A DNA stretch of 64,000 bases from contig CAKKNE010000005.1 of NCBI GenBank assembly GCA_918797485.1, positions 3,658,001 to 3,722,000 on the forward strand, read 5' to 3'. The first letter of the stretch is position 1, and every line of letters begins with the position of its first letter. Under the pieces are notes generated by a model, which had not been told where the DNA came from, did not search any database, and worked only from the letters and a program-made list of their open reading frames with translations. The stretch is from Pelagomonas calceolata. Its lineage: Eukaryota > Sar > Pelagophyceae > Pelagomonadales > Pelagomonadaceae. Below are positions 31,360 to 61,000 of this stretch, piece after piece. Position numbers and translations under genes: made by a program.

Positions 31360-32025
31360 CTACTTCGGGGAGACGTCGACGCCGCGGCGCTTCCAGCCGA
31401 ACTGCGCCGTCGCGTCGCGGTCCCAGCTCTGGGGCACTTCCACGAGGTCGGGGAGGCCCTCGGGGTATTGGTGGTCCGTTACTAAACGCTTCTTGATGTC
31501 GTCCAGGACCGAGCGCGGCATTTCCGGCTTGCGCGCCATGACCCAGACGTAGGCGCGGCTCGGGTAGCCCACCTGTGCGCAACCAACCAGTGTGAGTCGG
31601 GTGCAGCCGATAACTCTTAATCAAGTCCGCGACGCCATTTAACTATTTGATTATGCACTGGTGCCGACGACGAACCACGCCGCGTCGTTGTCCAGTGCCG
31701 TCTTAGACTTTTCTATCACCAAGTAGGGCATCTTCACCGGCCAGAACGGAGATACTTTCCAGCCAGACGTGTTATCGTCGTACCAGGAGCTACCTGTTTG
31801 CGGGAGCTTTTTCAGCGGGCCATCCAGCGAATTTTTATTGTATCTAAAGTCGATGTCTACGGCGCCCTCCGTCTTGCCCGCCGAATACGTCTCGATGGCA
31901 TTGTGCGCGCCCTTCTCGAAGATCGTCGGCATCACGGCGATGACGAACCACGTGCCGAAGAGCTGCCGGACCGGGACGTTATCGACGGGCTTCAGAGGTT
32001 CAAGCTTTGTAGAACTGGCTCCCAT
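31360..32025 (-). CDS. Lipocalin (Blc / temperature-induced lipocalin type)
   Basis: Beta-barrel protein that binds small hydrophobic ligands, often linked to membrane lipid protection. Exons 32025-31669 and 31572-31360, 189 aa. Family signs: the N-terminal lipocalin GxW region (VRQLFGTWFVIAVMP), PVKMPYLVIEKS, and, across the intron, WFVVGYPSRAYVWVMARKP, the conserved third lipocalin region. The start MGASSTKL could be N-myristoylated at Gly2 (inference). There is no signal peptide. A palindromic element lies 188 nt upstream, shared with the divergent SDR. Confidence 0.85.
31573..31668 (-). mobile_element. Introner, orientation 2, in lipocalin
   Basis: GT-AG intron, 96 nt. On the gene strand it begins GTCGGCACC, then AGTGCATAATCAAA, and ends CACACTGGTTGGTTGCGCACAG read in two parts (CACACTGG, TTGGTTGCGCACAG). 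The upstream flank CGTCGGCACC and the downstream flank GGTGGGCTAC match at 6 of 10 positions, a decayed target duplication that supplies the GT donor. Confidence 0.7.
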
Positions 32026-32212
32026 TGCGATTCTCTGGTGTTGAGGAGCGTCGAGCTACACCACGCTGATGACTGAGTGGAGCAGGGCCTCTGTGAATGG
32101 CGAAATTTGTGCGGAATCGATACCGCAATTGCGTAGAGGCCAGCTTATGGACGGGAGACGTAGTGCTGCTGCTTGTAGCGGCCTCTCTGATCTGCGTGGA
32201 TCTGCGCGGATT

Positions 32213-32235
32213 CTAGCGCAGCATAGACACACTAG
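32213..32235 (-). promoter_or_regulatory. Palindromic promoter element, copy 5 (reversed)
   Basis: On the minus strand it reads CTAGTGTGTCTATG, spacer, CGCTAG. It sits between divergent lipocalin (ATG 188 nt away) and SDR (ATG 189-211 nt away). The rest of the 398-nt spacer shows nothing else recognisable. Confidence 0.6.
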
Positions 32236-32423
32236 GCTGCCAGCCTTTGTGGCTGACTATAGCCTGTGTCTGAGGGATCGTTGCGCAGCAGGCGTCGTGC
32301 ACGCCTCTGCACGCATCCCTGCGAACCACTGCGGGCGCTGCAGTCAAGCGCTGTTCGAAGGAGACGCCAAAAAGCAACTGCAGCCGCTGCACTGCAAGCT
32401 GCAGCCGAGGAGCCGTCGCATCG

Positions 32424-33326
32424 ATGCCTGGCAGTCCAATGATCCCGGCATTATTGCTGCTTGGCTGGGTTGCACAAGCATTGGACCGTGGCACCGTCTT
32501 GGTTACGGGCGCCTCGCGCGGCATCGGTGCCGCCTGTGCGAAACGACTCGCGAGAGATGGTTACGTCGTCGCCGTGAACTACTGCAGCGACGCCGACGCC
32601 GCCGCGCGAGTCGTGAACGACATCGTGGAGGACGGAGGCTCAGCGGAGGCCTTCCAGGCCGATGTGTCGACTGAACAGGCCGTCGTCGACCTCTTTAACG
32701 CCATCGACGCGTCCCCGCTGCCACCGTTGACGGGCCTGGTGAACAACGCCGGCATCATAGGCTTCGAAATGCCGCAGACGCTGGATACATGTACGACGGA
32801 CGCCTTCGAGGCGATGATGGCGACGAATTTACTAGGACCGCTGATGTGCTGCCGCGAGGCTGCCAAGCGCATGGCGCCTGGATCCGCGGTAGTAAATCTC
32901 TCGTCGGGCAGCGCGTACCTCGGCAGACCATTATTATACAGCATGTCGAAGGGCGCCCTCAACAGCATGCAGCACGGTCTCATCGAGCCCCTCGCGAAGC
33001 AAGGTGTACGGATCAATACCGTGAGTCCGGGCGTGACCGAGACTGATATGGTATCAATCTGTGTGGAAATCAACCAGTGCGTCGGGTGCGCGATGATTCA
33101 GCACGAACGCGCCGTAGAATTTTTGATTTTCACACAGGTATCAATCATCACGGACAGCCCGGAGCGCCTGAAGAAGAGCGAGTCCGACATCCCCATGGGT
33201 CGATTAGCCAAACCCGAGGAAATCGCCGGCGCCGTCTCATACCTGCTGTCCCCCGACGCGTCCTTCACGCACGGCGCGAATATAAGAGTAGCCGGCGGCC
33301 GCGGGCCGGGGACGACGCTTGGGTAA
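32424..33326 (+). CDS. Short-chain dehydrogenase/reductase
   Basis: NAD(P)-dependent oxidoreductase of the classical SDR family, close in wording to FabG/3-oxoacyl reductases. Exons 32424-33050 and 33138-33326, 271 aa. Motifs: TGASRGIG (cofactor binding), NNAG, catalytic Ser in NLSSGSAYLG, and YSMSK (Tyr-Lys pair), then INTVSPGVTETDM. The N-terminus MPGSPMIPALLLLGWVAQAL is hydrophobic and may be a secretory or organellar signal. The 87-nt introner is in frame and stop-free, so an unspliced product would add 29 residues. The substrate is not known. Its stop is only 8 nt from the NPL4 stop on the other strand. Confidence 0.87.
   Translation: MPGSPMIPALLLLGWVAQALDRGTVLVTGASRGIGAACAKRLARDGYVVAVNYCSDADAAARVVNDIVEDGGSAEAFQADVSTEQAVVDLFNAIDASPLPPLTGLVNNAGIIGFEMPQTLDTCTTDAFEAMMATNLLGPLMCCREAAKRMAPGSAVVNLSSGSAYLGRPLLYSMSKGALNSMQHGLIEPLAKQGVRINTVSPGVTETDMVSICVEINQCVGCAMIQHERAVEFLIFTQVSIITDSPERLKKSESDIPMGRLAKPEEIAGAVSYLLSPDASFTHGANIRVAGGRGPGTTLG
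33051..33137 (+). mobile_element. Introner, orientation 1, in SDR gene
   Basis: GT-AG intron, 87 nt. The element (33060-33136) runs from TGTGTGGAAATCAACCAG to TTTTTGATTTTCACACA, an inverted terminal repeat pair. It is flanked by perfect 10-bp copies of GGTATCAATC at 33050-33059 and 33137-33146. The first copy supplies the GT donor; the element end supplies the AG acceptor. This is the clearest and probably youngest insertion here. Confidence 0.88.
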
Positions 33327-33334
33327 ACTAACAC

Positions 33335-34790
33335 TTAGAAGTCGAGGCCCGAGAACGACGCCAGGATCAGCCCGTAGCCCTCGTCGAGCGGCACCGCCCG
33401 GTCGACGACCGACGCGCAGACCGCGGGCACGAAGCCCTGCCGGTCGAAGATGTCCGGGAAACTCATGAGGAACAGCAGGACCCCGAAATCAGCTAAAGCA
33501 TCGACAAAATTCCCCGTCGCGGACCGCGATTGTTTCAAAAGTTCCTTCAGGTCGTCGCGCGTCTGCGGGACCAGGCGGTTCTCCTTCGGGAATTTGGACG
33601 CATAACATGAAGACTGGTGCTGCTTGACGGGCACGTTGCAGAGGAAGAAGGGCGTGTCGACGGCTTCTGCTCTCTTGCCCTCTACTATGGCCGTGTACGT
33701 CTCGTGCACCAAGACGGACGTCAAATTGTCGTCGTCCGGAGCCAAAGCGCCTTCCGCGACCATGGCCATGCACTGCTTCGAGACCTGGTACGCTTCAAAC
33801 GAGGCCTCGCCCGTCTCCGCGACGGATACTCTCACAGTAACAAAGGGCGTCTCGTTCACACCGTCGGCCGCTTCCAACTGCTCGAGGGCCGCCGTGATGA
33901 CCTCCTCTCCGCTCAGGATGAAGCCCTCCTCGCGCGGCGGGCAGGCGACGATCCAGCCCACCCTTTGTAGGCCTAATAAAGCGGCCAACGCCGCCACATC
34001 TTCGGCGCGGTCGTCCTCGAGGAGCTCGAAGCCGCGCTCGGACCTGCGTGGTGTTCGCGTCGCGTCGATGGCGTCGAGGGCGCGCGCGGTCGCCCCGACG
34101 CCGGCGCCGCGACGGCCAGTCGATGGCTCACCGTCGAGCAAAAAAGGACACAGTCACAGACGCCTCCTGCGGCGGCTCGTAGATCGCCTCCACTGTCACA
34201 TTTTTTTCATCATCAAAAGACCCGTATAGGTACCCTACCCGTTGTCTCCGCCAGCCGAGCTGCTGCACGTAGGCCTGGAACGACACGCAGGCGTTCGAGT
34301 CCAGCGACACCCCATGGCAAAAGGCCTTTTCCTGGCGCTTGATCTTGAAGTTGAACTGGTCGTCCATCTCCAGGAAGTCCGTCAGGGTCCAGGCCTTCTT
34401 GATGTCGCCCAGCGCCGCCTGGCCCGGCCTAAAACCTTTGGACGAGCAGTAGTCGTCATACTCCGTCGCGGTGATCTTCCCGTCGGCGCCTATTTTAACT
34501 CTTGCTGCTCCTTTAATGCCGCGGTCCTCCTTTTGGGGCGGTGGCGGGAGGGCGACGGCCTCGCCCACAATTAGGTGGACCATCGCGCCGTTGTCTCCCA
34601 GTCGGCACTGTTGTAACGTAGCAGCGTCATCTAGAGGTTTGTCTCCTTTCGGATCTTTGGACAGCGTTTGTTGGGCGGCCTGGACGTTCTTTTGCTGTTC
34701 TATGAGTTGTTTGACGGCTCCTATTGTGGTCTGCGGGCCCTCGACCTCGAGGCGCCAGGTGCCGGCCTTCGTTCGAATGCGGAGGATCAT
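33335..34790 (-). CDS. NPL4: NPL4, cofactor of the CDC48/p97 segregase
   Basis: With UFD1 it delivers ubiquitinated proteins to CDC48 for extraction and proteasomal degradation. Exons 34790-34132 and 34043-33335, 455 aa, near the length of plant NPL4. Seen: an N-terminal ubiquitin-like domain (MILRIRTKAGTWRLEVEGP), FNFKIKRQEKAFCHGVSLDS, QRVGYLYGSF and VEAIYEPPQ, and an MPN-like C-terminal core (RVGWIVACPP, GFILSGEEVITAA, SKQCMAMV). The 88-nt intron 34044-34131 has a canonical GTGAGC donor and CACGCAG acceptor and contains CGATGGCGTCG. Confidence 0.92.
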
Positions 34791-35034
34791 GCTTCTTTCT
34801 CGCGGTGTTTCGTACGCGGCGGTGGCGCGCGGCGTCGGTGGCGGTGTGCGGCCTCGGCGGCGTCGACGTGCGGCGTCTTCTTATTGTCCTAGAGGCCCAC
34901 GCACGGAGCGATGGCGTGCGCGCGGCGGACCACTCGCTTCTCGCAGCGCTTTGCTGCGGCTGTCGCGTCCGCGAGACCTGCGCCAACGGCTGTCCAGGAG
35001 CGCGGCCGGACGAGCCGGTCTACTCGATGGATGG

Positions 35035-35058
35035 GCTAGTGGCTTTATGGACGCTAGC
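35035..35058 (+). promoter_or_regulatory. Palindromic promoter element, copy 6
   Basis: GCTAGTGGCTTTATGGA then CGCTAGC, 24 nt, perfect outer arms. It lies between divergent NPL4 (245 nt) and the AlkB-like gene (237-260 nt). The surrounding 500-nt spacer (34791-35294) has a 128-codon open frame that is not credited as a gene. Confidence 0.65.
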
Positions 35059-35294
35059 TTGCTCTTTTGCGGCGCTGCTGTTCAACTCGCGAGTCTGGGA
35101 CGTACGGTAAGGTTGGAACCCAGCAGAAGTGCGGAGCGACTAACCACTACTCGCGGAGAGCACGCTCCCAGTTCGCGGACCGGCTAGAGCTGCTGAGGGG
35201 CTCCTGGTGAAAGCACTGCCACACAGCGGAGCGCGACCGTCTGGACGATCTGGAGGCGCGAACGTCTGGGCGACTGGACTGCCACAGCGCAAAA

Positions 35295-36668
35295 ATGCTC
35301 GCCGGCGTCCTCGTGTTCATCCTGGTGGCGCCCGCGACGCCCCTCGCCCCGGCGACGAAGCCGCCCTCGAGCCGCGACGTCGGCCGCCTCGTGAACGAGG
35401 CTGCGACCGTCGAAGACGCCCTCGCGACGGCGCGACTGCTCCCACTGGCTGGCGAGGAGACGCAGCACTGGGAGACGCAAGACGTCCATATTGCGAGACG
35501 ACGCAAGTCGCTGACGGCGCTGCTCCGACGCGTCACGCGCTGGACGGTCGGTGGCGCCGCGGCGGAGGCGCGACGGGGCGTGCTGGCGAACGACGACTTT
35601 ACACGTTGCATGCATCTGCTGGCCGAACCGGGGCCTGCAGAGGCGTACGCCGCCGAGCGACGCGACGGCCTGCGGCTCGTCGCCGCGCTGGCGCAGGCGC
35701 CGGACGCGCTGGCGCCCGTAGCGCAGGACGTCGACGCCGCCTTCCGCGTGGCGCTCGACGAGCTCGACGGCGCGCCGGGCGCCACGACCGGTTTACATTG
35801 GGCGGCAAAGCGCTGCGCGGCCGCCGGCGCGCCCGTGGCCACGTTGGATGCGCTAGGCGCGGCGGAGAGCGCGCTTCGCCTGCCGTTCCGCGTGCACGTG
35901 AACGCCGTGACCCTGCCCGGCGTCGGAGAGCTCGCGGCGGCCCTGCCGCTGCGCGCGGACACGATCGCGACGAAAAGTGGAGCGCTGGTGCTCGAGCGGC
36001 GGCGGACGGCGTGGCTCGCCGAGCCCGGCATCGGGGCACTGGCCTACAGCGGCAAACTCATGGCACCGGAGCCCATCCCCGACGCCGTCCGAAAGATCCG
36101 TGACTCTGTGCAACGGCAGTGCATAAATCAGATTGTCGCGGCGCGTTGCCACCCGACTCACTGATTGATTTGCGCACAGGTCAATGGCATGCTCGACGCG
36201 CCAAAATTTGACTGCGCTTTGTGCAACCTCTACCCGGCGGGCGAGGACGCGGCGTGCAAGTTCCACAGCGATCCTGAGCACGGGTCGCACTGGCACCTGT
36301 CGACAGCCGTCGTATCATGTGGGGAGCCACGGCGATTCGCCTTCCGAAGGATAGGGGCGGAAGATGACGAGCACGACCGCCACTCCTTCCATTTATTTGA
36401 CGGCGATGTCGTTGAGATGTTCGATAATTGTCAAGACATCTACCAGCACGCGGTGTTGGCGCCCGAGGACGCGACGACGAACCAGGGCGCAAGAGTATCG
36501 CTCGTGTTCAAAAACGCGCTGCTCTTGCCGTCCGGGAAGAAGGGGCACGGGCTCCCGGGCTCCGGCACTCGTAGCGACCGGAGAAAGGCGAAGATCAAAG
36601 TCGCGGGCGACGAGCGGCCGAAGCCGAAGCCTGGACGACGGCGGCGGCGAGCTACTGCGTCGCGGTGA
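35295..36668 (+). CDS. AlkB-like 2-oxoglutarate/Fe(II) dioxygenase
   Basis: Oxidative demethylase-type enzyme using 2-oxoglutarate, Fe(II) and O2. Exons 35295-36107 and 36180-36668, 433 aa. An N-terminal hydrophobic leader (MLAGVLVFILVAPATPLAP) suggests plastid or secretory targeting. Residues ~60-235 are Ala-rich and unrecognised. The AlkB core follows: RRTAWLAEPG, LAYSGKLM, FDCALCNLYPAGEDA, KFHSDPEHG (iron His and Asp), QHAV (second iron His) and RVSLVFK (2-oxoglutarate Arg). The end is basic (RPKPKPGRRRRR). Nucleic-acid versus protein substrate is undecided. Confidence 0.85.
36108..36179 (+). mobile_element. Introner, orientation 2, in AlkB-like gene
   Basis: GT-AG intron, 72 nt, one of the shortest. 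The element begins AGTGCATAAATCAG and ends CACTGATTGATTTGCGCACA. The flanks GTGCAACGGC and GGTCAATGGC match at 7 of 10 positions. Splicing restores RDSVNGMLDAPKF. It contains an in-frame TGA, so retention would truncate the protein before the catalytic core. Confidence 0.8.
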
Positions 36669-36742
36669 TAAGTACCTTGTATGTGTCAAACGCCATCGGC
36701 GCGACAGGATAAGTAAGATACGTTAAAGCCGGGGGAGACAAC

Positions 36743-37681
36743 CTAGGCGTCGTCCATCTTCGCATCCCCATCACCGTCCTTCTCGACGGCCTTCGTGATC
36801 GCGTCGAGGAAGCTCTGGACCGGATCACCAGTGAGAGGCGCCGCCTCCAATCCAAAGTTCGCTAGAATGGACGCGTAGTTTTCGGGGGTGAGTAAAGCGC
36901 TCGTCAGCTGCGATAGGGCCTGGCGGAACTGCGGCGCCCGTATGAGCGTCTTCAACTCGTCGACGTTGCGCTGGGACTCGGGCAGGTGCTGCAATAATCT
37001 CTCAACTACTGTTTGATCATTCAACACACCAGAAGCGTCGACGGCGTCGCCCGTCGCCACATCACCCAATGAAACACGCTGTTGTTGGGAGGACATGGCC
37101 GCCGCGAGCGACCGAGCCAGCGCGTCCGAGTCCACGCTTCCAGCGGGTGCAGGTGCAGCGGCGGGCATGTCTAGCGACGCAAAAACGTCCTGGATGTTGT
37201 CCAAGCTCAAAGGTGCTTGCCCGGCAGGAGCAGGCGCCGGATTGTTCCTCAGAGCTCGCAATGAAGCCCCCAAATCAGCACCATCACCATTTAAAGCTTT
37301 ATTTAACTTCTCGACGAGCTCCTTATCGTTACTATCGTCCGCGTCCTGCATCCAGAAGAAGAAGCGCCGGTCCTCCTGGGCCTTGAACTGGAGGATGTAC
37401 ACTCGATCCTCGTCCCGTCCGGTGGACGTCCTTTGGAACTCGGCGTCCCCGGGGAAGACCATGGTATCAATATTGGGATCCACCGCGCAGGGCATCTCCC
37501 GGCTCCTCCATTGAAAATGGTTCACGTCGTCCTTCTTCACGACTATCACTTCTCCTCGGTCCTTTTGTGGTGTGATCCACAACTTCCCGGCGGCGCGCTT
37601 CGCCTCGTCGCGGTGGGGTTCTACTTTACATTTACCGGCCTTGATGGCCACGATGGGCTCGGGGCCGGAGGGTGCGAACAT
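36743..37681 (-). CDS. RPN13: Proteasome ubiquitin receptor RPN13/ADRM1
   Basis: Subunit of the 19S proteasome that binds ubiquitin and recruits the deubiquitinase UCH37. Single exon, 312 aa from the Met at 37681 (MFAPSGPEPIVAIKAGKCK). Residues ~10-115 form the Pru domain (GKLWITPQKDRGEVIV, HFQWRSRE, DTMVFPGDAEFQ, RVYILQFKAQEDRRFFFWMQD). Residues ~200-300 are the DEUBAD-like domain (QRNVDELKTLIRAPQFRQAL, LTPENYASILANFGLE). The frame is open 81 codons upstream but that part overlaps the promoter element region and looks non-coding. Confidence 0.93.
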   Translation of the reverse strand: MFAPSGPEPIVAIKAGKCKVEPHRDEAKRAAGKLWITPQKDRGEVIVVKKDDVNHFQWRSREMPCAVDPNIDTMVFPGDAEFQRTSTGRDEDRVYILQFKAQEDRRFFFWMQDADDSNDKELVEKLNKALNGDGADLGASLRALRNNPAPAPAGQAPLSLDNIQDVFASLDMPAAAPAPAGSVDSDALARSLAAAMSSQQQRVSLGDVATGDAVDASGVLNDQTVVERLLQHLPESQRNVDELKTLIRAPQFRQALSQLTSALLTPENYASILANFGLEAAPLTGDPVQSFLDAITKAVEKDGDGDAKMDDA

Positions 37682-37877
37682 CTTTGCGCGCTGCGTCGGC
37701 GGCGCTCGGTCACGTCGCGGAGGCGAGGAGCTGGTCTGGCCTTTGGAGGGCCGCGGCGTGCACGCAGTTGCGCGCGCGCGGTCCGGGCGATTGCTGCTGT
37801 GAGCGAAGCTCTTGCAGCGCGTGTTGCAGGCCGCGCAGGCGCCGTAAATCGATGCGCCGCGAAGACCTCTGGTTCCC

Positions 37878-37898
37878 TTAGTGTCCTTAAACGCTAGC
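37878..37898 (+). promoter_or_regulatory. Palindromic promoter element, copy 7 (degenerate)
   Basis: TTAGTGTCCTTAAACGCTAGC: the left arm is imperfect, the right arm exact. It lies 197 nt from the RPN13 ATG and 169-189 nt from the divergent PDI ATG. Confidence 0.5.
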
Positions 37899-38066
37899 TT
37901 TATTTTTTTCGGCAGCTCGCACAAGCCACGTGTCGCTGCCTCCCTGCTCGTAGAAGGACGTGCGGACTCGCACTTGCAGTGCCGGCCGCGGAGAAGCCAT
38001 CGCTGCGAGACTTGGCAGTTCTAAGCAATTCTCAAAAAGACAAGCTGTGCACAGCATCCATCTCTG

Positions 38067-42402: not shown

Positions 42403-43530
42403 CTACTCGTCCTTCTTGGAGAACTTGCTCTGGAGCTTGCCGATGAGCTGGAACAGGCGGAAGCGCTTCGAGGGCTTGTACGGCTTCATTTCCGGAATGG
42501 GGAGCGAGCGCCCTACGCCGTAGAAGAACGCAAAGGCGCCGCCGAGGCCGCCCGTGTTGCCTTGTCTGCGGTCGACGGTGTAGAAGCCGAACTCCTTGAC
42601 GAGGCCGTCCGCCGTGAAGTCCATGTGCATGCACTGGGGCGGGTTGATAATCTCCTTGCCCGTGGCCTGTGTGGAAATCAAAATTTTACGGCGCGTTCGT
42701 GCTGAATCATCGCGTCGTCCTCCACGCCTGCTCGATGGCGTGGCGACGCACTGGTTGATTTCCACACAGCCCGTGGCCTTGCCGAAGCGCTTCGAGTCGG
42801 CGACGTGCTTGCCGAGGGTACGCGTGTGGAACCAAACGCGGTTCGTCTGCGTCGGGTCCACTCTGAATAAGTGGTACTGCGCGTTGACGTCGAAGCTCTC
42901 CTCGAGCTTGAAATCCGCGAGGGCCGCCAGGTACTCCTCCTTCGGGAGCGGGCCGACCACGGGAGCGCAGAACTCGAAGCCCTCGGCGAGGCAGGCACCC
43001 TCGTCCTTCGTGCCGATGCCCGCCGTGAGCACCTCCTTGGCGCGCGCGACGAGATCCTCCGGCTTGATCGGAAAGTCAGACGCGAGGAACAGGGCCTCCT
43101 CGTCGACACACCTGTGCGCAAATCAATCGGTCGTGATTCAGCCGTGGGCGAACAAGCGCCGCGGAAGTTTTGATGTATGCACTGCGACGCACTGCGCCGC
43201 GAAGTCGGCCTCGGCGCCGGACGCGAGCTTGACGGGCGCGGCGGCCGCGGCCAGCTCGGCCGGCGTCGGAGTGGGCTTGACGGCGGCCGGCGCGGCGACC
43301 GCGGCTTCGAGCGACGGGAGGCTCTCGAGGTACGACGGCGCGGCGACCGTGGCTTCGATGGTCGGCGACGACGTCTGCGGCAACGACTCCAGGTACGACG
43401 CGCTGTCCTTCGCAACCCTCGCATTGTCCATGGTCGCAGTGTTGGCCTGGACAGCCCGCTTCGCGATGTTGTTGAGGTAGCTGTTCTCGAACGCGGTGGC
43501 GCCGAGCGCCAGGGCCAGTATGCATTTCAT
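42403..43530 (-). CDS. SnoaL-like/NTF2-fold protein with N-terminal leader
   Basis: Exons 43530-43193, 43111-42778 and 42666-42403 give 311 aa. The leader MKCILALALGATAFE is a signal peptide, probably plastid or secretory. An Ala/Pro-rich linker carries two YLESLP repeats. Residues ~115-290 resemble SnoaL-like (NTF2-fold) proteins of algae: ALADFKLEESFDVNAQYHL, WFHTRTLGKH, NPPQCMHMDFTADGLV and GNTGGLGGAFAFFYGVG. The function is unknown; the fold often makes small-molecule cyclases or isomerases. Two introners of opposite orientation interrupt it. The second is best explained by a GC-AG splice. Confidence 0.75.
42667..42777 (-). mobile_element. Introner, orientation 1, likely GC-AG
   Basis: The element 42668-42768 has ends TGTGTGGAAATCAA and TTGATTTCCACACA and is flanked by perfect 10-bp copies of GCCCGTGGCC (42658-42667 and 42769-42778). 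On the gene strand the duplication begins GGCCACGGGC and has no GT. Using its GC as donor removes exactly one copy and restores KATGKEIINPPQ. The only in-frame GT inside the repeat end (donor at 42765) would leave four extra codons. The interior holds a hairpin CCACGCC / GGCGTGG. Confidence 0.8.
43112..43192 (-). mobile_element. Introner, orientation 2, in SnoaL-like gene
   Basis: GT-AG intron, 81 nt. The gene-strand element begins AGTGCATACATCAAAA and ends CGATTGATTTGCGCACA. The flanks AGTGCGTCGC and GGTGTGTCGA match at 7 of 10 positions. Splicing restores DFAAQCVDEEALF. Confidence 0.78.
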
Positions 43531-46829: not shown

Positions 46830-47833
46830 ATGGACCGCTACACGAAGGTCGAAAAGGGCCAGACGCACGGCGAGGGCGCCTATGGCGTCGTCTACAAGGG
46901 CAAGGACCGCATCACGGGCGACTTCGTGGCCATGAAGAAGATTAGACTAGAACTCGAGGACGAGGGCATGCCGTCGACCGCACTCAGAGAAATCTCGCTG
47001 CTCAAGGAGCTGCAGCACCCGAACATCGTGGCGCTGAAGGACGTCCTGCAGAACGACGGGCGATTGTACCTGATCTTCGAGTTCCTCGACAAGGACCTGA
47101 AGCGATTCCTAGACAGCAACGAAGGGCCCTTGGACCGCATGCTCATCAAGTCCTACACGTACCAGATGCTGCGGGGCCTGAACTTCTGCCACGCGCGCGG
47201 GGTCATGCACCGCGACCTGAAGCCCCAGAATTTGTTGGTGACGAAAGATGGGCGGCTGAAGATCGCGGACTTTGGCCTCGCGCGGGCGTTCTGCCCGCCC
47301 ATTCGACCGCTGACGCACGAGGTCGTCACGCTGTGGTACCGGCCGCCCGAGATCCTGCTCGGATCCCAAACCTACGCGCCGCCCATGGACATGTGGGCCA
47401 TCGGCACGATCCTGGTGGAGATCGGTGCATGAATCAAAATTTCACGGCGCGTTCGAGACCACCCGCGGCCTGCATTCCCCCAGACGCCGTCGACGCGCAC
47501 CGGACTCACCGGTTGATTTGCGCACAGGTCGAGATGCAGACCAAGAAGCCCATGTTCCCGGGCGACTGCGAGATCGACGAGCTGTTCAAGATCTTTAGAG
47601 TGCTGGGCACGCCGAACGAGAGCGTCTGGGCCGGCGTGGCGTCGCTGCGGGACTACCAGTCGATCTTCCCGTCGTGGCCGCGGCTCGAGCTGTCCAAGTT
47701 CGCGGCCGGTTTGGAGGACTCGGGCCTCGACCTCCTGGACAAGTGCCTCAAGTACGCGCCGAACCAGCGCATCTCGGCGAAGCAGGCCCTGGACCACGCC
47801 TACTTCGACGACCTCGACAAGGACGTGATATAA
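46830..47833 (+). CDS. CDK1: Cyclin-dependent kinase, CDK1/CDKA type
   Basis: Cell-cycle Ser/Thr kinase activated by cyclin binding. Exons 46830-47414 and 47528-47833, 296 aa, the usual CDK length. The cyclin-contact helix is PSTALRE, a variant of PSTAIRE. Other motifs: AMKKIRLE (catalytic Lys), [35 protein letters not shown], and after the intron [20 protein letters not shown]. The glycine-rich loop reads [13 protein letters not shown], two to three residues longer than the usual KIGEGTYGVV. Thr14/Tyr15 inhibitory sites correspond to Ala-Tyr, so only the Tyr is kept. Confidence 0.93.
47415..47527 (+). mobile_element. Introner, orientation 2, in CDK
   Basis: GT-AG intron, 113 nt. It begins GTGGAGATCGGTGCATGAAT and ends CACCGGTTGATTTGCGCACAG (read CACCGG, TTGATTTGCGCACAG). 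The flanks GGTGGAGATC and GGTCGAGATG match at 8 of 10. The interior AAATTTCACGGCGCGTTCG equals the reverse complement of the SDR introner interior, proving the opposite orientation. An in-frame TGA follows the donor. Confidence 0.85.
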
Positions 47834-48296: not shown

Positions 48297-51200
48297 ATGA
48301 CTGACGCCACTGCTGGACGCTCGCGAGGTGCTGCAGCCTTGCTGGCTGCTTTCGAGCCACCACGCGAGGAGTCGAAGTCGGAGTCGCAGTCGTTAACTGA
48401 GCAATCCAGTCTCCTGGAGGCAGGGCTGCAGCGGCAGGCGAACGCAGCACACGTGCAAAATGCGCTCTCGGACGACGAAACCACAGACGAAGGCGGCAAG
48501 GATTATGGCAGTCCGTTTCTCGAGCGCACCAAGAGCTACGGCTCGTTCTTCAAGCCGCAGCGGCCTTTAGCGCCTATAACAAAGGACGACGCCTCGCTCC
48601 TAACGGCGGCGATGCGGCAGTCGCCGCCCGCCTCGTCGCAGGGCTCGCCGAAGCCGCCGAAAACGTCGCTGCTGCGCAAGGCGTCGACCGTCGTCATCGA
48701 CGCCGTCGCGCCGCCGCAGACGCGGCGGCGCTACTACGCCGACGTCGCCGTCACGCTAGCGCGGGAAGCGGTCGTCGGCGGCATCGCGTTCTTCTCAGTG
48801 CATAAATCAAGTTAGCGAATGCACCCAACTCACTGGTTGATTTGTGAACAGGTTCTTCTTCGTGACGGTGTTCGCGGCGGCCTTCGCGTCGACGACGTCG
48901 GCGGACGTCTCGTTTTTGCGGCCGCGCGGCGCGGACCTCGTGCGCATCGCGACGCTGGGCTTCGTGGCCGGGGCGCCCTTCGTCTTTTTCCAGAAGCTGC
49001 CCTACGCCATGCCGCTCGGGCCCGACCTCGGCGTCGCGCCTCTCCTAGGATTGGTGGCCGAGGCGATTGGCCGGGCGTATCCCGTGGGCACGAAGCTTCC
49101 TTCAGATGATGACGACGCCTTTGCGGCGGTCATTTTAGCGTGGGCGTTCGCGGCTTTACTGATCGGCGTCGCCCTGACGTCCCTGTCGCGGCTGCGGCTC
49201 CTGCGCTTCGTGGATTACATCCCGTTCCCGGTCATCTGCGGCCTCCTCGCGTCAATAGGCGTCGAGCTGGTGGTCGCGGCGATCGGGCTGGCCGCGCCGA
49301 GCGGGGGCTGGAAGGCGCATCCGTTGCCCGTCGCCGTGGCCGCGTTACTAACGGCCGTCGACACTTTATTAAGAGTGCGCCGCGTGGCGCCCGAATTAAG
49401 ATTTGGCGCCGTCGTCATCCTCCCGACGGCCATCTTCCACGTCGTCGCCTGGGAAACACACGCGGGGCTCAACCACTACTGGTTATTGGGACACGGCGCG
49501 ACGCCGTCGGCCGTGACCTACGCTGGCGTCGACGCGCTGCACGACGCCGCGGCCGGCTGCCGCCTCGAGATCACGCCGCCGCTCTGGGCCTTTCATCAAT
49601 TGTGGAGAGACCTCATCACGGGCTCGGCGCGGGGCAAGCGCGCGCTGGCGGCCTTCTGCGCGATGACGCGGCCGCTGCTGGCCGTCGTGGCCCTCGCGAT
49701 TTTGAAGGCACCCATGGCCCAGGCCGCGATGCGCCGGTCGCTCGCGCCGCCCGAGGAGATCGAATCAAGTGCGCCCGAGGCGCTCACCATGCAAAGACGC
49801 TTCCGGCGGCGCCGCGTCGTCGGCAGTAGCATAGCGACGGACGATCGCTTCGAACTCACTACTCTAGGCTTCTGCAGCATCCTCTCGGCGCTCCTCTCGG
49901 GCTCGGTGCTCGGCCAGCAGATCTCCCTGTCGGCCATCGCGCGGGGTTTGGGATTGGGTAGGTGGCAGCGCGCGCCGGGCGCCATTGCTGTATTGTTAGC
50001 CCTGGTCGCGCTCTGGCGGCCGGACTCGCGCTTCTCGATGGCGCGGGAGTTCGTGCCGCGGTTTGTCTACAGCGCTTTGGTTGCGGGCCAGGGCCTCGCG
50101 AACGTCGACCGATGGTTGATTGAGCCCGGCCGCCAGGTCCTGCCTCCCGCAGAACTCTGCGTGACGGTGCTCATCGTCTGCGTCGTGCGCTTCGCGGGAT
50201 TGGCCACGGGCCTGACGGCGGGCGCCGTCGCGTCCGTGGCGATTTTTGCGTTTGCGAACCTTTCCGCGCCGGTCGTGAAGTACGCCGCGACGGCACTCAA
50301 TGTTAGGTCCTCCGTGGAGCGCGACCGCGACGAGGCGGCTCGCTTAGATGTTTACGGTGATAGAATAGGAATTTTTGCCGTGCAAGGGTTTCTGTTCTTC
50401 GGGAACGGGCGGCGCGTTGTCGAGTTCGTGAGGGCGTGGCTCGACGGGGCGCACGACAACGCGCACTACGCGATTCTCGACCTCGCGCACGCGACGGGCG
50501 CCGACGCGTCGGCGGTCGACGCGTTGCTAGAAGCGGCGCGCCTCGTGCAGGCGACGCATCGACGCGAGGTCCCGGCGCTCTACGTCTGCGGCGCGCACGA
50601 AGACGTTCGGCGCGCGCTCCGGCGGCGACAGGCGTCGGGCGGCGCGGCCGTGAAGCAATCGCTGGACGTCGATAGCGCCCTTGGCGACTGCGAGGCACGG
50701 TTGCTGCGGGACCTTCGCGAGGGCAACTCGCAGACGCCGCTGCGGCGCCTGGGTACAACGGTGGTCTCGTTTGATAAAGCTTTGATCGGCGCCGTCCGCC
50801 GCAGCGCTTTATCAGGCTTCGCCGCCGACGCGGAGATAGACGCGTTGCTGGCGGGGCCCGGCCTGAGTGAATGCGCCGAGGCGAGGAGATTGAAGTCGGG
50901 CGAGGCGTTGTTACCACATGGCGCTGCGGGCGAGCCGACGGGGCACGACGACGCGCTCTACATCGTCGCGAGCGGCCGCATGACGGTGCGGCGCGACCCG
51001 AATCAGTCGACGGGCGCGATACTGCGGAAGGCGCGGCGCCACGCGACGTCGTTCCGCCTCGCCGAGCTGGGACCGGGGAGCATCATTGGGACGCACGAGT
51101 TCGTGCGAAGGACGCGGAGCGTCGGCGTCTTCATGGCCGCAGAGCCGTGCCTGTTGTACAAGCTGCCCTTCGCGGCGCTCGACGCGCTCGCCAGGAGCGA

Positions 51201-51372: not shown

Positions 51373-51401
51373 TGTGTGCATAAGACATGTTGTTAGTGAC
51401 A

Positions 51402-53306: not shown

Positions 53307-53611
53307 CGCGACACGCGAGTGGGCAGCCTCGCACAGGTACGCGCTGTGAGATGTCGTGTGCACAGCGCAGAGAGGCGCTCCCGCTTCTGAGACGCCCCGC
53401 ACGCTAGTCGCCCAGGATAGAACCGTCCTCAAACGGACCAGAGAGTACTCTGTGCATGAATCCCGGAGCGCAATTCCGGGACAAGGTGGCGACACAAAAC
53501 TGATGGCGCTGCATATGCTCTCCGGCGGCAAGAGGACCAAAACGCTGCCCATTCGTGGGCCCACGACGCGACAAAGCTGCCCATCCATGACTCGAGCCTA
53601 AACCACCAACC
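53307..53611. other. Divergent intergenic region
   Basis: 305 nt between the ankyrin and IQ/coiled-coil starts. There is no full palindromic element; only CGCTAGTCGCC at about 53402 recalls an arm. Confidence 0.4.
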
Positions 53612-55931
53612 ATGAGCAGGCTCCCCGAGATCGCGAGCCCGGGAGTGAGCGCCAAGCCGTCCGTCTCCAGCACGACGCAGGGCCTCACGACGCTCGCCGA
53701 GCAGTCGTCCATGGGCCTCACGACGCTCGTGGCGCCGCTCCAAGAGGCCGTCACCGAGAAACTCTTCAGCGGTGGTAGTTTGGCCTCTGGAAGTGTGGAG
53801 ACGTCGCCCGAGACCTTCGCTGATAAACTAGTAAGGGCCGCCGCGCACCGAGCCGAGATCATTTCCCAGCGGCGCGAGGCGGCGCGACGGTATACTGCTG
53901 TAAGAGCAGCATCTGCGCGGCAGCGCCGCGACGCGGTCCTGCAAAAGCGAGAAGACGACGTGTTGAGTAAAGTCGAGTTGAAAAGGGACCGGCCGCGGAT
54001 CCTGCGGGAGCAGGCCTTGCAGCGGCTGCGCGGGGCGTTACTACTCACGATCGTGCAGCAAGCTATCCGCGCGAAGGCTTTGTCAGACCAATTGGAGATA
54101 GGCCGCGAGGACATGGCGACGCGGCGGAAACACCGGCGAGCCGCGAAGATGGTCCAGCGGTGCTACCGCCAGAAGCGGACCCAGCGCATGTGGACGAAAT
54201 TTTCGAAGTATGCGCGGCTCATGAAGCGGCATCGCCTGAGGATGTGCTTCACGATACGGTGTTGGAGGAGGGCCTACGCGGCGGGCGTCGTGCGGGACTT
54301 TTTGCGGGCCACGAACAAGGGCGCGAAGCTGCAGCGCGTGGTCATGACCTACACGGAGCGCGTCGTGCTGGGTCAGTCGTTGATAAGGCAGTACGTTTAT
54401 GCGAGGCGGGCGCGGATGAAGATCCTGGACCAAATCTACGTCCAGCTCGAAGGTATTATCATCGAGGAGGAGCGGCGGCGCATCGTGGCGCGCGTGCACG
54501 AGATCCGGAAGCTGTTGCGAGCGAGGTTGGAAGGCAGGGCCGACAGCCGCGCGTCGCTCTCGACGCAGCCCGCGCGGGGCAAGTCCTTCGCCGAGAAGGT
54601 GATGGACGAGGCCGACAAGGTCGAGTTGGACCTGAAATATCAACGATCGAAGGTCCAGAATTTGATCGAGGGCCACCAGGAGCGCTATGAGTTGTGCTGT
54701 AAATATCGGAAGGACACGCCGACGCTGATGGCGGAATACGACGCGTTCCTCAAGCGCGACGAGCCGCCTTCACCACAGAAGCGGCGGCCGACGACGGCGC
54801 CGGCCGCTCTGGATCAGCAGCTCTTGCCCTCGGGCGAGCGCAAGCCCTCGGTCAAAGAAATAATCAGGAGTTCGCGCGCCGCGCGGGCTGGGAAGCTAAA
54901 AAAGGGCATCGAGGTCCAGCGCGGGCGGGCCGCGCTGACGGCGGCGTCCGCTTCCGCGTCCGTTCCACCCATACGCCATCGCCGCGACGTGCGCCCTCGA
55001 CGCTATCGCCGCGACGCCGTCTCCGTGCGGTCGGCGCGGCGATGGCGTCTCGACTGGTGCAGCCTCGACGCCATCGACGCGAGAGGGAGAACGCGTCGCG
55101 TGCCACCTTCGTGATGTCCGACGCGTCGCCCGCGCAGGCCACCGGATCCGCCGCCGCGCGTCGAGCCGAAGCGACGGAGGGAGCTGCTGTCGTGGTTGTT
55201 GGCGCGGCGACTACGCGCGTGGCGCCGGCGGATGGAACGGCGCGCGTTGCGCGCTGTGTGGAAATCAACCAGTGTGGATTCGCCTCGTGTCGATTGGTGG
55301 GGCGCCCGAAATTTGATTTTTCAACACAGGTCGCGCGCGTCGCGCAAAGGCAGATCGCGCTACTCGCGCGGCTCCATCGACACCGCCAATACCTGTGTGG
55401 AAATCAACCAGTGAGTTAGGTTACGACGCTGTCACGGCGAGAACATTGCGTTGATGGCCTGAAAACTCCACGCCATCGAGCAGACGCAGTTACGGGGAAG
55501 ACGTCGCGTCGGGCATCCAAAATTTGATTTCCACACAGGCCACCACCGGCGACGAGTCGACGGCGATGGCGTCTAACGAGGAGATCGCCGACGACGCCGC
55601 GCTCGCGGGCCAGGCGGACGCGTTCTCGATTGGAGACGCCATTCGGTGGCTGAAGCTCGGGCAGCGACGAAGCAGTGGGGACGTCCGAGAGCAAGCGGAG
55701 GCGTCGGCGATGCTCGAGTCGGCGACGCAGGGCATCTATATGTTCTACAACTCGTTTGGGGGCGTCGCCGGCATGTACGCGGCAGTCGAGGACTGCGTCA
55801 GAGATGAGCGCAATCGACAGCAGGCTTTGCAAGATGAAATGGAGGGGACCCTGGAGGCGCGGTACGGCATGGACCCGTCCCAGTTCTCCGGCGGGGTAAA
55901 GGTTGCGCCGCCCGAGTTGACGGAGATATAA
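53612..55931 (+). CDS. IQ-like / coiled-coil protein with two introners
   Basis: Exons 53612-54957, 55138-55245, 55330-55384 and 55539-55931 give 633 aa. Basic helical segments rich in Arg/Lys dominate (RRKHRRAAKMVQRCYRQKRT, RCWRRAYAAGVVRDFL, IRQYVYARRARMK) and look like IQ-type calmodulin-binding or cytoskeletal helices. The third and fourth exons give LLARRLRAWRRRMERRALR and IADDAALAGQADAFSIGDAI. No catalytic domain is seen. A flagellar or cytoskeletal role is plausible but unproven. The first donor (54958) could be 54946; both keep the frame. Its stop is 21 nt from the next gene's stop on the other strand. Confidence 0.65.
55246..55329 (+). mobile_element. Introner, orientation 1, in IQ gene (first)
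   Basis: GT-AG intron, 84 nt. It begins GTTGCGCGC then TGTGTGGAAATCAACCAGTG and ends TTTGATTTTTCAACACAG. The flanks CGTTGCGCGC and GGTCGCGCGC match at 8 of 10. The donor GT comes from the upstream copy. Confidence 0.78.
55385..55538 (+). mobile_element. Introner, orientation 1, in IQ gene (second), likely GC-AG
   Basis: 154 nt. The element begins TGTGTGGAAATCAACCAGTG and ends AAATTTGATTTCCACACAG. The flanks CGCCAATACC and GGCCACCACC match at 7 of 10 and lack GT. A GC donor at 55385 gives SIDTATTGDEST in frame. The alternative GT at 55397 adds four codons. The interior contains CCACGCCATCG. Confidence 0.72.
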
Positions 55932-55952
55932 CTTGTAGACAACACATCATCT

Positions 55953-56594
55953 TTATTTTTTCGGCGGCGGCGGCTGGTACCACCGGTCCTCGTCCGTTGA
56001 TTGGTTTCCGGGCGACGCCCAGTCGTCCGACGGGCCTCCGGGCGACGACCAGTCGTCGGCCGATGGCTGCCCGGCCCAGCCGTCGTCGCTGTTGGAAGCA
56101 GCGCCACCACCGAACCGCTCCGCCCGCGCCTCGCACAGCTCCCAGATGCGCGTCATGGCCCCGGACACCGCCTTGGCGGGCGGCTCCTCGGCCATCATGG
56201 CCTTCAGGTCGAGGAACGTCGGGCACAATAGAGAATCGACGCGGGGCGAGTGCTCCGGCTGCGCGCAGATCTTCTCGAAGAAGGGCTCGACGCGCCGCGC
56301 GAAGACGCCGCCGAAGGTCAGATTGCCCACTAGGATCCCTCCGAGGGTCGACGCCACGACGCCGGCGCGCCGTCTTAGAAGCGCCGCCGTACCGATGCAA
56401 GTCGCGGTCCCGGCCAGCGCGCATTCCCACCACAGCCGGGATCTTAACTCCTTCTCAAGTGGCGTCGACTCGGCATTTTTGATGCGCTCACCGCGCTCCT
56501 TCAAACGCTGCACGAACTGGCGCTGCTTCATCTGGGCTTCGAGCGCTTGGTGGCGCTTCTCACTTGTGGAGCGGGTGTCATCGGAGTCTGGCAT
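55953..56594 (-). CDS. Small membrane protein, OCIA-like region
   Basis: Single exon, 213 aa. A charged helical N-terminus (RSTSEKRHQALEAQMKQRQF) leads to a hydrophobic hairpin at residues ~55-100 (WWECALAGTATCIGTAALL, GVVASTLGGILVGNLTFGG). The Cys next to the first helix and the Gly-rich second helix recall OCIA-domain mitochondrial proteins, a weak match from memory. The C-terminus has three DDW repeats and PPPPKK. The function is unknown. A palindromic element lies 132 nt upstream, shared with the F-box gene. Confidence 0.65.
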   Translation of the reverse strand: MPDSDDTRSTSEKRHQALEAQMKQRQFVQRLKERGERIKNAESTPLEKELRSRLWWECALAGTATCIGTAALLRRRAGVVASTLGGILVGNLTFGGVFARRVEPFFEKICAQPEHSPRVDSLLCPTFLDLKAMMAEEPPAKAVSGAMTRIWELCEARAERFGGGAASNSDDGWAGQPSADDWSSPGGPSDDWASPGNQSTDEDRWYQPPPPKK

Positions 56595-56725
56595 CTTGTC
56601 CCCGAGACTCGCTGTTTTACAGTGCTGCCAGCGCAGCGACTTAGACTGAACTCAGAGGCCACTCTGCGCCTCTTTAAGCGACTCAGAGCACCGCTGTGAC
56701 CAGTTTTTTGGCCTTGGGCACTGAG

Positions 56726-56749
56726 GCTAGTGTCTTACAGGTCGCTAGC
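56726..56749 (+). promoter_or_regulatory. Palindromic promoter element, copy 12
   Basis: GCTAGTGTCTTACAGGT then CGCTAGC, the best consensus copy. It lies 164-187 nt upstream of the F-box gene ATG and 132-155 nt from the divergent small membrane protein. Confidence 0.7.
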
Positions 56750-56805
56750 TCACCGCGTCGAGCAAAAAAAGGCCCTGTGCAGCGCAATCTCTCGTACTCA
56801 CGGCA

Positions 56806-56811
56806 TATATA
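56806..56811 (+). promoter_or_regulatory. Possible TATA box
   Basis: CATATATACAC lies about 100 nt upstream of the 56913 ATG and 57 nt after the palindromic element. A single AT-rich match in GC-rich DNA; no transcript start is known. Confidence 0.3.
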
Positions 56812-56912
56812 CACACGGATCTGTCATTTCGCAGCGCGTTTTAGCCCTGTGCAAGCGCTCCACGCATCGCTCACCACCTTTACTGTACTTTAGCACTTGA
56901 CCCATAAGCCAT

Positions 56913-58052
56913 ATGGCTACAGAGCTGGCAGCCAGCGCTGCGGAACTGGCTGCCGGAGAACAATTCGCGCGCGCCCATCGCGCTCTGCGGACGGACGACG
57001 TGCTGGCATGCGTCTTCTCTCGGCTCGCGCTGCGCGACGGCTGCGTCGTGGCGGCATCAGTCTGCAAGCAGTGGCACGGCGCCTGGCGACGCCGCGCGAA
57101 AGGGCTGTACCGCCCGGTGCGCTTAGGTCTCGGTCCATTTGAATTTGGTGATCACCTTACCCCCCTGGTCGCTGGCGGTGTCATTGTACCCGATTACAAT
57201 GAAGGCTGTCTCCATATGTACACCGCGGAGGGTGAGCATCGAGGGACTGTAGGTGACTGGAATTGCCCAACTGCTGTGGCTCTGGACGACGAGGGTGTGT
57301 CATGGGTAGTCAACCACGACAATCGTGAGGTGGGTCGCCATCCCGTAAATTATGAGACTATGCAACTTCGGGCTCCGTCGTTATCAGAGATAGCATTTTT
57401 CCAAATTGGGCGGCCCATTGATCTCGAGATTTCTGGCGATGCAGTGTTGGTTTTGTTTCACACTGACTGGGGGTATGGTGAAGTTGCTGTGCTCGACCGA
57501 AACTCAGGGGCCGTGCGTTATCGATTTGGCTCGAGCGCTCCCCCCGGCTGCGTCGACGAGCTGCGGGGTGCGATGGGCCTGGCCATTGATGGTGAGTATT
57601 GTTTCGTGGCCGACACCTACAATCAATCCGTTGTAATCTTCAACTGGCGCGATGGGACGTTCGTGCAACGCATTGGCAAGGCGGGTGACGCTCCGGAAAT
57701 GCATGATGATGAATATGGCGAACATTACTGGGATCTCGTAGCGTATGACGACGACCGTAAGTCTGCCGAACAGGGGCAGTTTCACGAGCCCTACGACGTC
57801 GCGGTACGAAACAAGCTCCTATACGTCTCCGAACGAGGTGGTCGCCGAATCCAGATCCTGCGCCTGCCCGATGATTTGAGTGCAGCAGATCCGGAGGTCC
57901 TCCAGATTATCCCCTCGCCGGGTGGAGTGGAGCTCGCTGGTATTTGCTTGGACGGCGAGCGGCTGTGGTGCGTAGGGGCGCCATACCACGCAGGATCTCC
58001 CGCAGAAGACTACGGCCATGCCAGCATCAGCATCTTCGCCCCCATTGTGTAA
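56913..58052 (+). CDS. F-box-like / NHL-type beta-propeller protein
   Basis: Single exon, 379 aa. Residues ~25-60 read as an F-box (RTDDVLACVFSRLALRDGC, AASVCKQWHGAWRR). Residues ~75-370 form a propeller with NHL-like blades (PDYNEGCLHMYTAEGEHRGT, GLAIDGEYCFVADTYNQSVV, GQFHEPYDVAVRNKLLYVSE). The combination suggests an SCF ubiquitin-ligase substrate receptor, inferred. Base composition is lower in GC than neighbours. Its stop lies 41 nt from the C2-gene stop. Confidence 0.8.
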   Translation: MATELAASAAELAAGEQFARAHRALRTDDVLACVFSRLALRDGCVVAASVCKQWHGAWRRRAKGLYRPVRLGLGPFEFGDHLTPLVAGGVIVPDYNEGCLHMYTAEGEHRGTVGDWNCPTAVALDDEGVSWVVNHDNREVGRHPVNYETMQLRAPSLSEIAFFQIGRPIDLEISGDAVLVLFHTDWGYGEVAVLDRNSGAVRYRFGSSAPPGCVDELRGAMGLAIDGEYCFVADTYNQSVVIFNWRDGTFVQRIGKAGDAPEMHDDEYGEHYWDLVAYDDDRKSAEQGQFHEPYDVAVRNKLLYVSERGGRRIQILRLPDDLSAADPEVLQIIPSPGGVELAGICLDGERLWCVGAPYHAGSPAEDYGHASISIFAPIV

Positions 58053-58093
58053 GTTGATCACTAAATTACTCACAAAAACAAATCACTGGAGGA

Positions 58094-61000
58094 CTATCGT
58101 GAGCTCGGAACAGGTTTCGCCCACGTCTTCGACCAGTTCGTCGACCAGTTCGGCGGCGGCGCCACGGGTCGCCTGCGCGCCGGCGCCGACCGCGGACGGG
58201 CAACAGTGTGCCGCGGCGCTGCCTTGGTTGGAGCAACGCGCCGACGCCGAGAGGTCGCCGTCGCCGAAGCAGGCCGTGCGCGCGCGGACGAGGGCGCAGA
58301 CCGCACGACAGAGGCTGAGGATGGACGGGCGACAGAGGCAGAAGACGGCCGCGGCCGCACGGCGCCCGCGGAGGCCGGCCGCGCTCCTAACAGTGACCGC
58401 TTCTGCGAGGAATTGGCGGCGGCCGCGGCGCGCGCGAGGTTAATACTGCGCTTGTCCGGCCGCGGCGGTCGGCCCGCCTTGAAGGCTAGTTTGTGGAGGC
58501 GGCCGCGCGTCGGCGGCAGGTGCAGGTTCTGCTTGATGAACGTAGGTTTCCCGCGTTGCGCGTCGGCCTCTAACAACCCCCGGATGCGCCGGAGCTGGGG
58601 CTCCAAATGCGTCTCGTGAACGTTGTACTCGCCGAGGCCGTGCAGTTCGGAAGCCGGCTTCCCGACCGTCGCCGACTGCGGTCGCCGCTTCAACGGCGTG
58701 ACGTCGAGCCGCTTTGGCGTCGAGCGCTTCGCCGGCGCCGAGCCCGGCCTTTTGAGGACGATGGAGTCCTCGATGGACCGGGGGCCCGAATCCACAGAAG
58801 TGACGTCGTCGTTATGGAACAACAAACGCACAGCATCTGCTTCCTTGTTGCCGGTGAGTGTGGGTCCTTTGTAGTCCGTAAACCCGAGATTCCGCCGCGG
58901 GTCCTGAGCGGGATCGTTATGCCGCTCAAGTGCTTGCCGGATGCGGTACCTCGCTTCGAGGGCCCTCCTATCCTGCCGCTTCGTATCCGGACCGTTCTCT
59001 GAAGAAAAGACCGCGGCGACGCCGTGGCGCGGGTAACGGCGCAATTTGACCCCATACAAAGGGTCGGCCGCGTCCGCTTCGGCGTTGTCCTCGGCTTCAA
59101 GCCTTTCGTCCTCTGCTGTCCAGCCCGTGACATCGCGACGTCTTGCTCTAGATTCCCGCGCCTCGCGCCTCCGCAATAATTCGCGCGCCCGTGCCGCGTC
59201 CGCGCCCGTCAGAGCTAAAAGCGAGCCGCCGTCCGCCGTCGCGACGATGGCCGCCCGGTCGAGCTCCCTCCGTATCGTATCGATGATCGCGTCCGGGACC
59301 TCGCCGCGCGCCGCCTCAAGCACGTCGCGCGCGGAAGCGCCGAGGCAGCTCGCGGCGAAGGGGTCTGCACCTTTCTGCATTAATAGACCGACGCATTTCA
59401 ACGCCCGCGTCATCTGCAAGCGGTTGCGGCCGCGAGCAGCATCGACTGCGAAGCGCACGGCGCGCGACACCGCCGACTCGCCCGCGCCGTTCGCGTCCTC
59501 CGCCGTGGCCTCGCCCGTCTCGAGCAGCTCCGCAACTCGCTCCAAGTCGCCGGCGCCCGCCGCGCGGCAGAGCTCCGCGGCGGCCCGGTCCTCGTCGTTG
59601 TCGACGGGCAGCTGCTTCCCTCCCGACGCTCTCCCGAGGATCGCCCGCCGCACGGCCCAGGCCTCCTCCTGGGTCGCGCAGCAGACGCGGCAGTCGGAGA
59701 CCTTCTGGAGCAGACGCGGCCCCTCTCGCGCAGCAGACGCGAGGCGCACGACGTGGTCTCTTCCTTCAAAACGGCAGACGCGCACGTCGCACAGGTGCGC
59801 GCGTCTTAATGAAAACCGCTTCTCGTCCAGGTACCTGTGTCGAACGATGGCGTCACGACTCTCTGACGCCCACGTCGACGGCGTCGAGGCGGTGCGGTCT
59901 CATGAAGACGCCGTCGGCGCACGGGATCGCCGACTCGAGCGGCGCGGGCACGCCGTGCAGCAGGAAGGGGAAGCCCGTCGCGACCTCCGTGGCGAGGCGC
60001 ACGCGCCGCAATTGCCACCGGGCGCACTGCTCGCCTGCGCGCGGGAGACGCTCTCGACGCCATCATCGCGCCGACGGCGTCGCGGCAGCTGCGAGGAAAA
60101 AGGACGCGGAACGGCACCGGGCGGCGTCACGAAGACCTCGCGGTTCCAGAATCGGTGCACGTCGAACGGATTCACGTACGTGTAGTCCTCGACCAAATCC
60201 AGCGAGGCCCCGTCCTCGTCCTCCTCGGTCGTGATGGCCGGCGCCTCATCTTTCTCAATCTCGGCGAGCTCGGGCACGGCGCGCGCGGCCGCGCGCCGCC
60301 GCGCGCGCGCGCCCGCGGCCGCGGCCATGCCCGCCGCCGCGACGCCAAAAAATACTTTTTTCTGCGTGCTGCCCGAGATGCCGGCGCTGATGCCTGATGG
60401 TGATGGTTTGGCAGGCTTCGGCGTCGTCGGAGGGACGACCTTTGCCACTGTTGCCGGCGAGTGGCACCACTGCACGATCAGCTCGACTTCGCCCCCTAGC
60501 TCGACGGTGATCGTCTCACTGACGTCCGTCGCCTCTCCGACCAGCTTGTGCCAGCCCCGATGGATCTTCCGATCTAGTAATGACGTCAGGTTTATAAGCG
60601 CGTGGCCCATGAGCTCGCCTCTCGACACATCCTCAAGTCTAGCTTTCAGTTGAGGGGAAGCGACGTTCGCGTCGAGCGAGACGGCCCACTGCTGGTGCCT
60701 GTGTGGAACTCAGAATTCGGGCGCCTCACAGCTGCGTCTGCGCGATGGCGTGGCGATTCCACGCCATCGACGCAACTTCGTCCCCGCGGCCGCGTCGGCT
60801 CGATGGCGCGCGGGCTCACGAAGGTTGATTTCCACACAGGCCAGTACCAGACGGGGTGCGGCGTCTTCTTCCGCTCCTGCGACCGCCATCTGTGCAAGAT
60901 CTTGTCCGACGACGACACCTCAAACACTACCAAAGGAGACCCTTCGGTCAAACCAGCCGCCTGGACCAGGGCGATTTTCAGTTGATTCGCGACCTCGGCC

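Follow-up and report, generated by a model that had tools for sequence, protein, structure and literature searches.

Introners were reportedly described from Aureococcus anophagefferens and Micromonas pusilla by Huff et al. in 2016. As set out in the relevant parts of PMC7789003, PMC10228655, and PMC9860276, introners of these two genera resemble the elements studied here in being short non-autonomous DNA transposons with terminal inverted repeats (TIRs) and target-site duplications (TSDs) that obtain one of their splice sites from the target duplication, which supports the original prediction's statement that introners of this mechanism are known from both; a review, at least in the part that concerns them, also credits them with insertion in both orientations. 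Another pelagophyte introner, family 4 of Aureococcus sp. (TARA_AOS_82_MAG_00129; PMC9860276, Fig. 2F), has an 8-bp TSD as here but, as that figure portrays it, brings both splice sites with it and lengthens the transcript by 12 bp, whereas the splice proposed here would add nothing. For P. calceolata RCC100 itself, the pertinent sections of PMC9481584 give six nuclear contigs (32.4 Mb), of which 1 and 5 share a duplicated end, and an intron-length peak near 210 bp, likened there to the Introner Elements of Aureococcus. This peak matches the 202-206 bp elements described below plus one 8-bp TSD copy, and our elements are very likely the Introner Elements of P. calceolata of that paper. Introner-length introns in this species have thus already been reported (PMC9481584, in the same sections), and the most useful feature of the present data is the direction lock of one subfamily, B, which sets these elements apart from the Aureococcus and Micromonas introners as far as the descriptions above go; introners were absent among the matches listed for a literature search on orientation phrases.

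The window analysed here is a 64,000-nucleotide stretch of contig 5 (C5:3658001-3722000), and the genome searched consisted of 8 contigs and 32,445,274 bases. Ten introns with shared inverted ends had been proposed in the window; all ten segments were found, the intron limits give the proposed lengths of 64-154 nt, and all ten look like introner insertions, but the shared ends held for only five of them. These five (33051, 42667, 55246, 55385, and 60699; type A) carry CTGTGTGGAAATCAA or a near variant at both ends, whereas the others (31573, 36108, 43112, 47415, and 48788; type B) have a CAGTGCATAAATCA-like sequence at one end and a TTGATTTGCGCACAG-like or CTGTGCGCAAATCAA-like sequence at the other. 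In window coordinates, the ten are as follows.

31573-31668, minus strand: type B introner intron; GT donor (GTCGGCAC), TSD 5/8, element 31573-31660; coding phase 0 positive on both sides.
33051-33137, plus strand: type A introner intron in the SDR gene; GT donor, TSD GTATCAAT 8/8, element 33059-33137, End1 on the donor side.
36108-36179, plus strand: type B introner intron; GT donor, upstream TSD copy with one extra base, element 36117-36179; Pfam 2OG-FeII_Oxy_2 match across the junction.
42667-42777, minus strand: type A introner intron; GC donor, TSD GCCACGGG 8/8, element 42667-42769.
43112-43192, minus strand: type B introner intron sharing its gene with 42667; GT donor, TSD 7/8, element 43112-43184.
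47415-47527, plus strand: type B introner intron in the CDK gene; GT donor, TSD 7/8, element 47423-47527; gap-free junction against CDK1 chain 4yc6.
48788-48851, plus strand: type B introner intron; GT donor, TSD GTTCTTCT 8/8, element 48796-48851.
55246-55329, plus strand: type A introner intron; GT donor, TSD 7/8, element 55254-55329; weak coding signal.
55385-55538, plus strand: type A introner intron; GC donor, TSD 6/8, element 55393-55538; coding signal clear only downstream.
60699-60847, minus strand: type A introner intron; GT donor (GTACTGGC), TSD 5/8, element 60699-60839; Pfam C2 match across the junction.

Read in gene sense, the upstream TSD copy begins with GT in eight of these introns and with GC in two (42667 and 55385), and the far element end is CACAG, or AACAG at 48788. 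Between the two TSD copies, 5 to 8 of the 8 positions agree; the match is perfect in 3/10, and 36108 has one additional base. A 55-nt exon (55330-55384) is squeezed between the introners at 55246 and 55385. The density of introners is uneven, with ten in about 29 kb (31573-60847) versus ten in 200 kb of contig 1 (C1), and none was recognised by paired ends in the first 31 kb of the window (1-31572).

Allowing up to 3 mismatches, the window contains 15 occurrences of the terminal 14-mer TTGATTTCCACACA, compared to a mean of 1.91 and a maximum of 6 in 100 shuffles. The whole genome contained 1,596 exact copies (789 + 807; about 0.06 expected), so that other genomic copies exist, as the original prediction required; the reversed control pattern of the 14-mer had 0 copies in the genome, and GYNNNNNN (GY being GT or GC) stood directly before an A end 987 times. 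The full-length element is about 204 bp (8 of the 21 exact-ended elements on C1 measured 202-206 bp), and shorter copies are internal-deletion derivatives. Type A ends read CTGTG...CACAG, while one end of type B is CAGTG, whose complement CACTG is without an AG. Many alike copies thus lie at unrelated intron positions (1,596 exact ends, and different genes within the window), they have terminal inverted repeats and TSDs, and, by sequence only, one splice site comes from the element and one from the TSD at 354 of 361 ends. Judged on these features, the elements are a large, real introner family of known kind.

We read genome-wide flanks at ends that are first flanked by a base other than T (632 for A End1, 693 for A End2, 83 for B1, and 78 for B2), a filter that loses some acceptor-side ends. 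The 361 ends listed are the first 100 each of A End1 and A End2 (all on C1) plus all of B1 and B2, and counts refer to ends rather than independent elements, some B2 entries possibly being duplicated copies of one insertion (e.g., C1:228461 and C5:228359). Of these, 354 had GY at their outer edge, RC at their inner edge, or both, compared to about 34% expected from the window sequence, and 7 had neither (66% expected). Among these seven exceptions, one (L183) has GT two bases farther out and another (L187) has GT one base farther in; the other five look degraded or without a clear TSD by eye. For 78 of the 100 14-mer places listed (those on C1 up to 1582938), pairing gave 21 exact-ended pairs, of which every one had GY on one side or the other and 6 had it on both, and 36 unpaired places, 24 of them with GY. 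These counts bear out the expectation that the upstream target copy usually gives the GT donor and the element end the AG (GT in 8 and GC in 2 of the ten, with 354/361 listed ends fitting).

We put the probability at about 88% that a non-autonomous transposon, a donor from the TSD, an AG from the element, and selection for splicing together explain the pattern. Miniature elements (MITEs) of about 204 bp and their internal-deletion derivatives would insert with an 8-bp TSD; in the sequence, the gene-upstream TSD copy starts with GT or GC, the opposite element end reads ...TTGATTTNCACAG or similar, and the frame usually continues. GY would then serve as the 5' splice site and the element end as a compact 3' splice site (branch-like TTGAT, pyrimidines, and AG), and loss of one TSD copy together with the element would restore the old mRNA. 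Selection for splicing after insertion, acting along with a mild palindromic target bias (GY....RC), would produce the observed pattern. Type A would work either way because it has an AG-giving end on both sides, and type B insertions would mostly survive in one direction because only one side has such an end.

Direction of use was called from the flanks, with GY-only ends taken as the donor side and RC-only ends as the acceptor side. Among the matches listed, type A was used both ways (donor to acceptor side 39:29 for End1 and 34:32 for End2; p 0.27 and 0.90 against 1:1), whereas type B was nearly one-way (5:45 for B1 and 46:0 for B2), and the A and B counts differed with p 9e-8 and 9e-10. 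A guess that type A is one-directional, End1 being donor-side in all five A introns of the window, was rejected on these larger lists, which are near 1:1. The original prediction had held that the interiors of the SDR and CDK elements, read in opposite gene senses, show one family tolerated in both directions. The common interior is real (against a 204-bp copy, identity is 96.2% across 78 positions for the SDR element and 91.0% across 89 for the CDK element in reverse complement), and two-way tolerance holds genome-wide for type A; the pair itself is not of one subfamily, however, since the SDR element is type A and the CDK element type B, and it thus mixes a two-way with a nearly one-way type.

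If a missing AG locks type B, an AG is to be expected opposite the five exceptional B1 ends (L178-L182), and CACAG was found there in all five: three are exactly TTGATTTATGCACAG, which is one base off the complement of the common B2 end, one is TTGATGTACGCACAG (L180), and one is the A-type TTGATTTCCACACAG (L182). Opposite ends were read for these exceptions, for copies in the window, and for 12 control B1 ends facing a nearby exact CAGTGCATAAATCA end, among which there were 0 exceptions. Type B could instead be one-way owing to internal signals or other end bases, such as the branch point or cryptic sites, rather than to the missing AG, and A and B ends do differ at further bases besides the AG base; we consider this unlikely, as type A elements with the same interior are used in both directions and as CACAG stands opposite every exceptional B1 end. 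Among 16 type A elements sampled by eye (L008 and C1:157284, which has a shortened 3' end, keeps its AG, and reads CAGTG on the donor side, were left out), the acceptor AG was kept in 16/16 and its donor-side mirror in 11/16 (p 0.043). A single terminal letter appears, from these comparisons of ends, to decide between two-way and one-way splicing of the element. One of the exceptions (L182; C4:5021390-5021670) combines a B1-type end with an A-type end, which suggests mixing between subfamilies A and B.

At unambiguous listed ends, GT donors numbered 166 and GC donors 64, i.e., 28% GC (64/230), whereas Aureococcus introners always have canonical splice motifs according to the relevant part of PMC7789003, which also places non-canonical introns at 1.2-2.1% in animals, fungi, and plants, with GC-AG the most frequent. 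For B2, GC donors made up 27/77 (CTTCATCA was dropped from the B2 target-site counts). GC is twice as common as GT among the window dinucleotides, so GT donors are over-represented (65% vs 33%, p 8e-9). The GY at the TSD edge might nevertheless reflect transposase target preference alone, unrelated to splicing: the non-donor edge is biased as well, with RC in 31/77 B2 sites vs 17.6% expected (p 3e-6), and GT:GC at the donor edge (50:27) does not differ significantly from AC:GC at the non-donor edge (14:17; p 0.083). We regard this reading as improbable, because 98% of listed ends obey the rule, far more than the 40% found at the non-donor edge, and because the GY strand is the coding strand in most scored cases. 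A palindromic target bias (GY....RC) would still raise the chance of a GY donor on one strand at the landing site. TSD position 7 was A in 27/77 B2 sites vs 17.7%, and T at position 2 was enriched but confounded with the splice donor.

A single coding phase was positive on both sides of 8/10 window introns (55246 and 55385 failed) and continued across 9/12 elements outside the window (C1:7277, C1:157284, and C1:157525 failed), so that the frame signal fails in 5/22 elements examined in total. At C1:157525, the higher score belongs to the opposite strand, which is without a GY donor, and at C1:185201 both strands score well. Some of the window introns, at most four of the ten, would leave the frame visibly unharmed when retained: at 33051 and 55246, the segment length is a multiple of 3 and the tested frame runs through without a stop. 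Frame alone is therefore not proof of splicing for every copy. At the protein level, the spliced CDK gene aligned to CDK1 without a gap at the junction, and the ferredoxin-thioredoxin reductase obtained by splicing C1:40642, with its GC donor, matched a solved chain gap-free over 103 residues (CPCVP|MRERHECHC), while the SDR gene alignment had a one-residue gap adjoining the junction. Pfam matches ran across the junction in 36108 and 60699 and lay outside it in C1:45901, and the search returned no family for 3/6 proteins. That the segments are MITEs kept in mRNA or in pseudogenes is very improbable, for while some elements are without a clear frame and the introns are predicted here from sequence, the GC/GT and AG edges, the frame continuity, and the gap-free junctions in conserved proteins speak against it.

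The family had also been described as active-looking, which the data bear out only in part. The intron at 42667 is identical to the 204-bp copy at C1:6976 at 103/103 aligned positions, internal deletions aside, and its own TSD is identical, which marks it as young, while the other 15 copies aligned to the 204-bp copy are 80-97% identical; by this measure, recent copies exist. On the other side, no autonomous partner was found, and all 10 C1 introners in the duplicated ends of C1 and C5 are common to both. No introner-sized difference was seen between the two at 98.5-99.9% identity (33.5 kb of C5 vs C1:1-200000), a C5 sample that covers the stretches around C1 elements and C5:1-5000, such that C5-only insertions elsewhere would escape it. 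At their starts, C1 and C5 share 99.8% identity over 5 kb. C1:1-10000 and C5:1-5000 are without telomere repeats, in contrast to the first stretches of C2, C3, C4, and C6, in agreement with the relevant section of PMC9481584.

As to the mobiliser, the genome had no match to the transposase domains MULE (PF10551), KDZ (PF18758), or P-element RNase H (PF21787), and for the latter two the control genomes were likewise without a match, so that these two negatives do not demonstrate absence. For hAT (PF05699), a single locus was reported (about C4:4499549-4503199; L149, L177), a complete-looking transposon with a 721-aa open frame, ends CAGGGCAGCAGAAGG unlike the introner ends, and an 8-bp duplication TTGCTCGC; its protein, used as a query, matched only itself. 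Upstream of its open frame lies a stretch that by eye resembles the introner interior. Long gaps between exact ends (C1 1581222-1582951; 549066-552524) were rejected as autonomous elements, as they hold ordinary genes and separate elements, and no autonomous hAT with ends matching the introners was found in the genome. hAT ends follow a CANNG-like consensus, and the TSD preference is nTnnnnAn. hAT is the likeliest guess for the mobilising superfamily, given the TSD length of 8 bp and the CAGTG at one end of type B. hAT-superfamily MITEs likewise have an 8-bp TSD; the enrichment of A at TSD position 7 and of T at position 2 may agree with their preference, the T being confounded with the splice donor, and the B2 end CAGTG fits the consensus, but the CTGTG with which A and B1 ends begin does not. 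Our literature search found nothing joining introners with the hAT superfamily. In IMG/VR, the 14-mer occurred in at least 120 stretches, with one match apiece among the 80 matches listed, which we take for chance; the 21-mer and 19-mer ends matched no stretch in that database, where records very near this genome may be missing.

We tentatively propose, at somewhat less than even odds, that a hAT-like MITE was turned into an intron maker by one TIR base, CAGTG becoming CTGTG (and CACTG the 3' splice site CACAG), with B half-converted and one-way and A fully converted and two-way; with a palindromic target (GY....RC), intron birth would then be orientation-independent. The reverse order, in which the AG was lost from a two-way ancestor, also fits the data. 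The question of how transposons initially acquire their splice sites is still open in the study of intron evolution, and here, over a thousand copies in one genome, the AG at the element tip tracks the direction of use, so that the causal base is directly testable in a reporter. The 28% share of GC donors, if confirmed by RNA, would let this alga serve as a natural assay for the use of GC donors, and this share and the direction lock tracking one terminal base are the points worth taking further.
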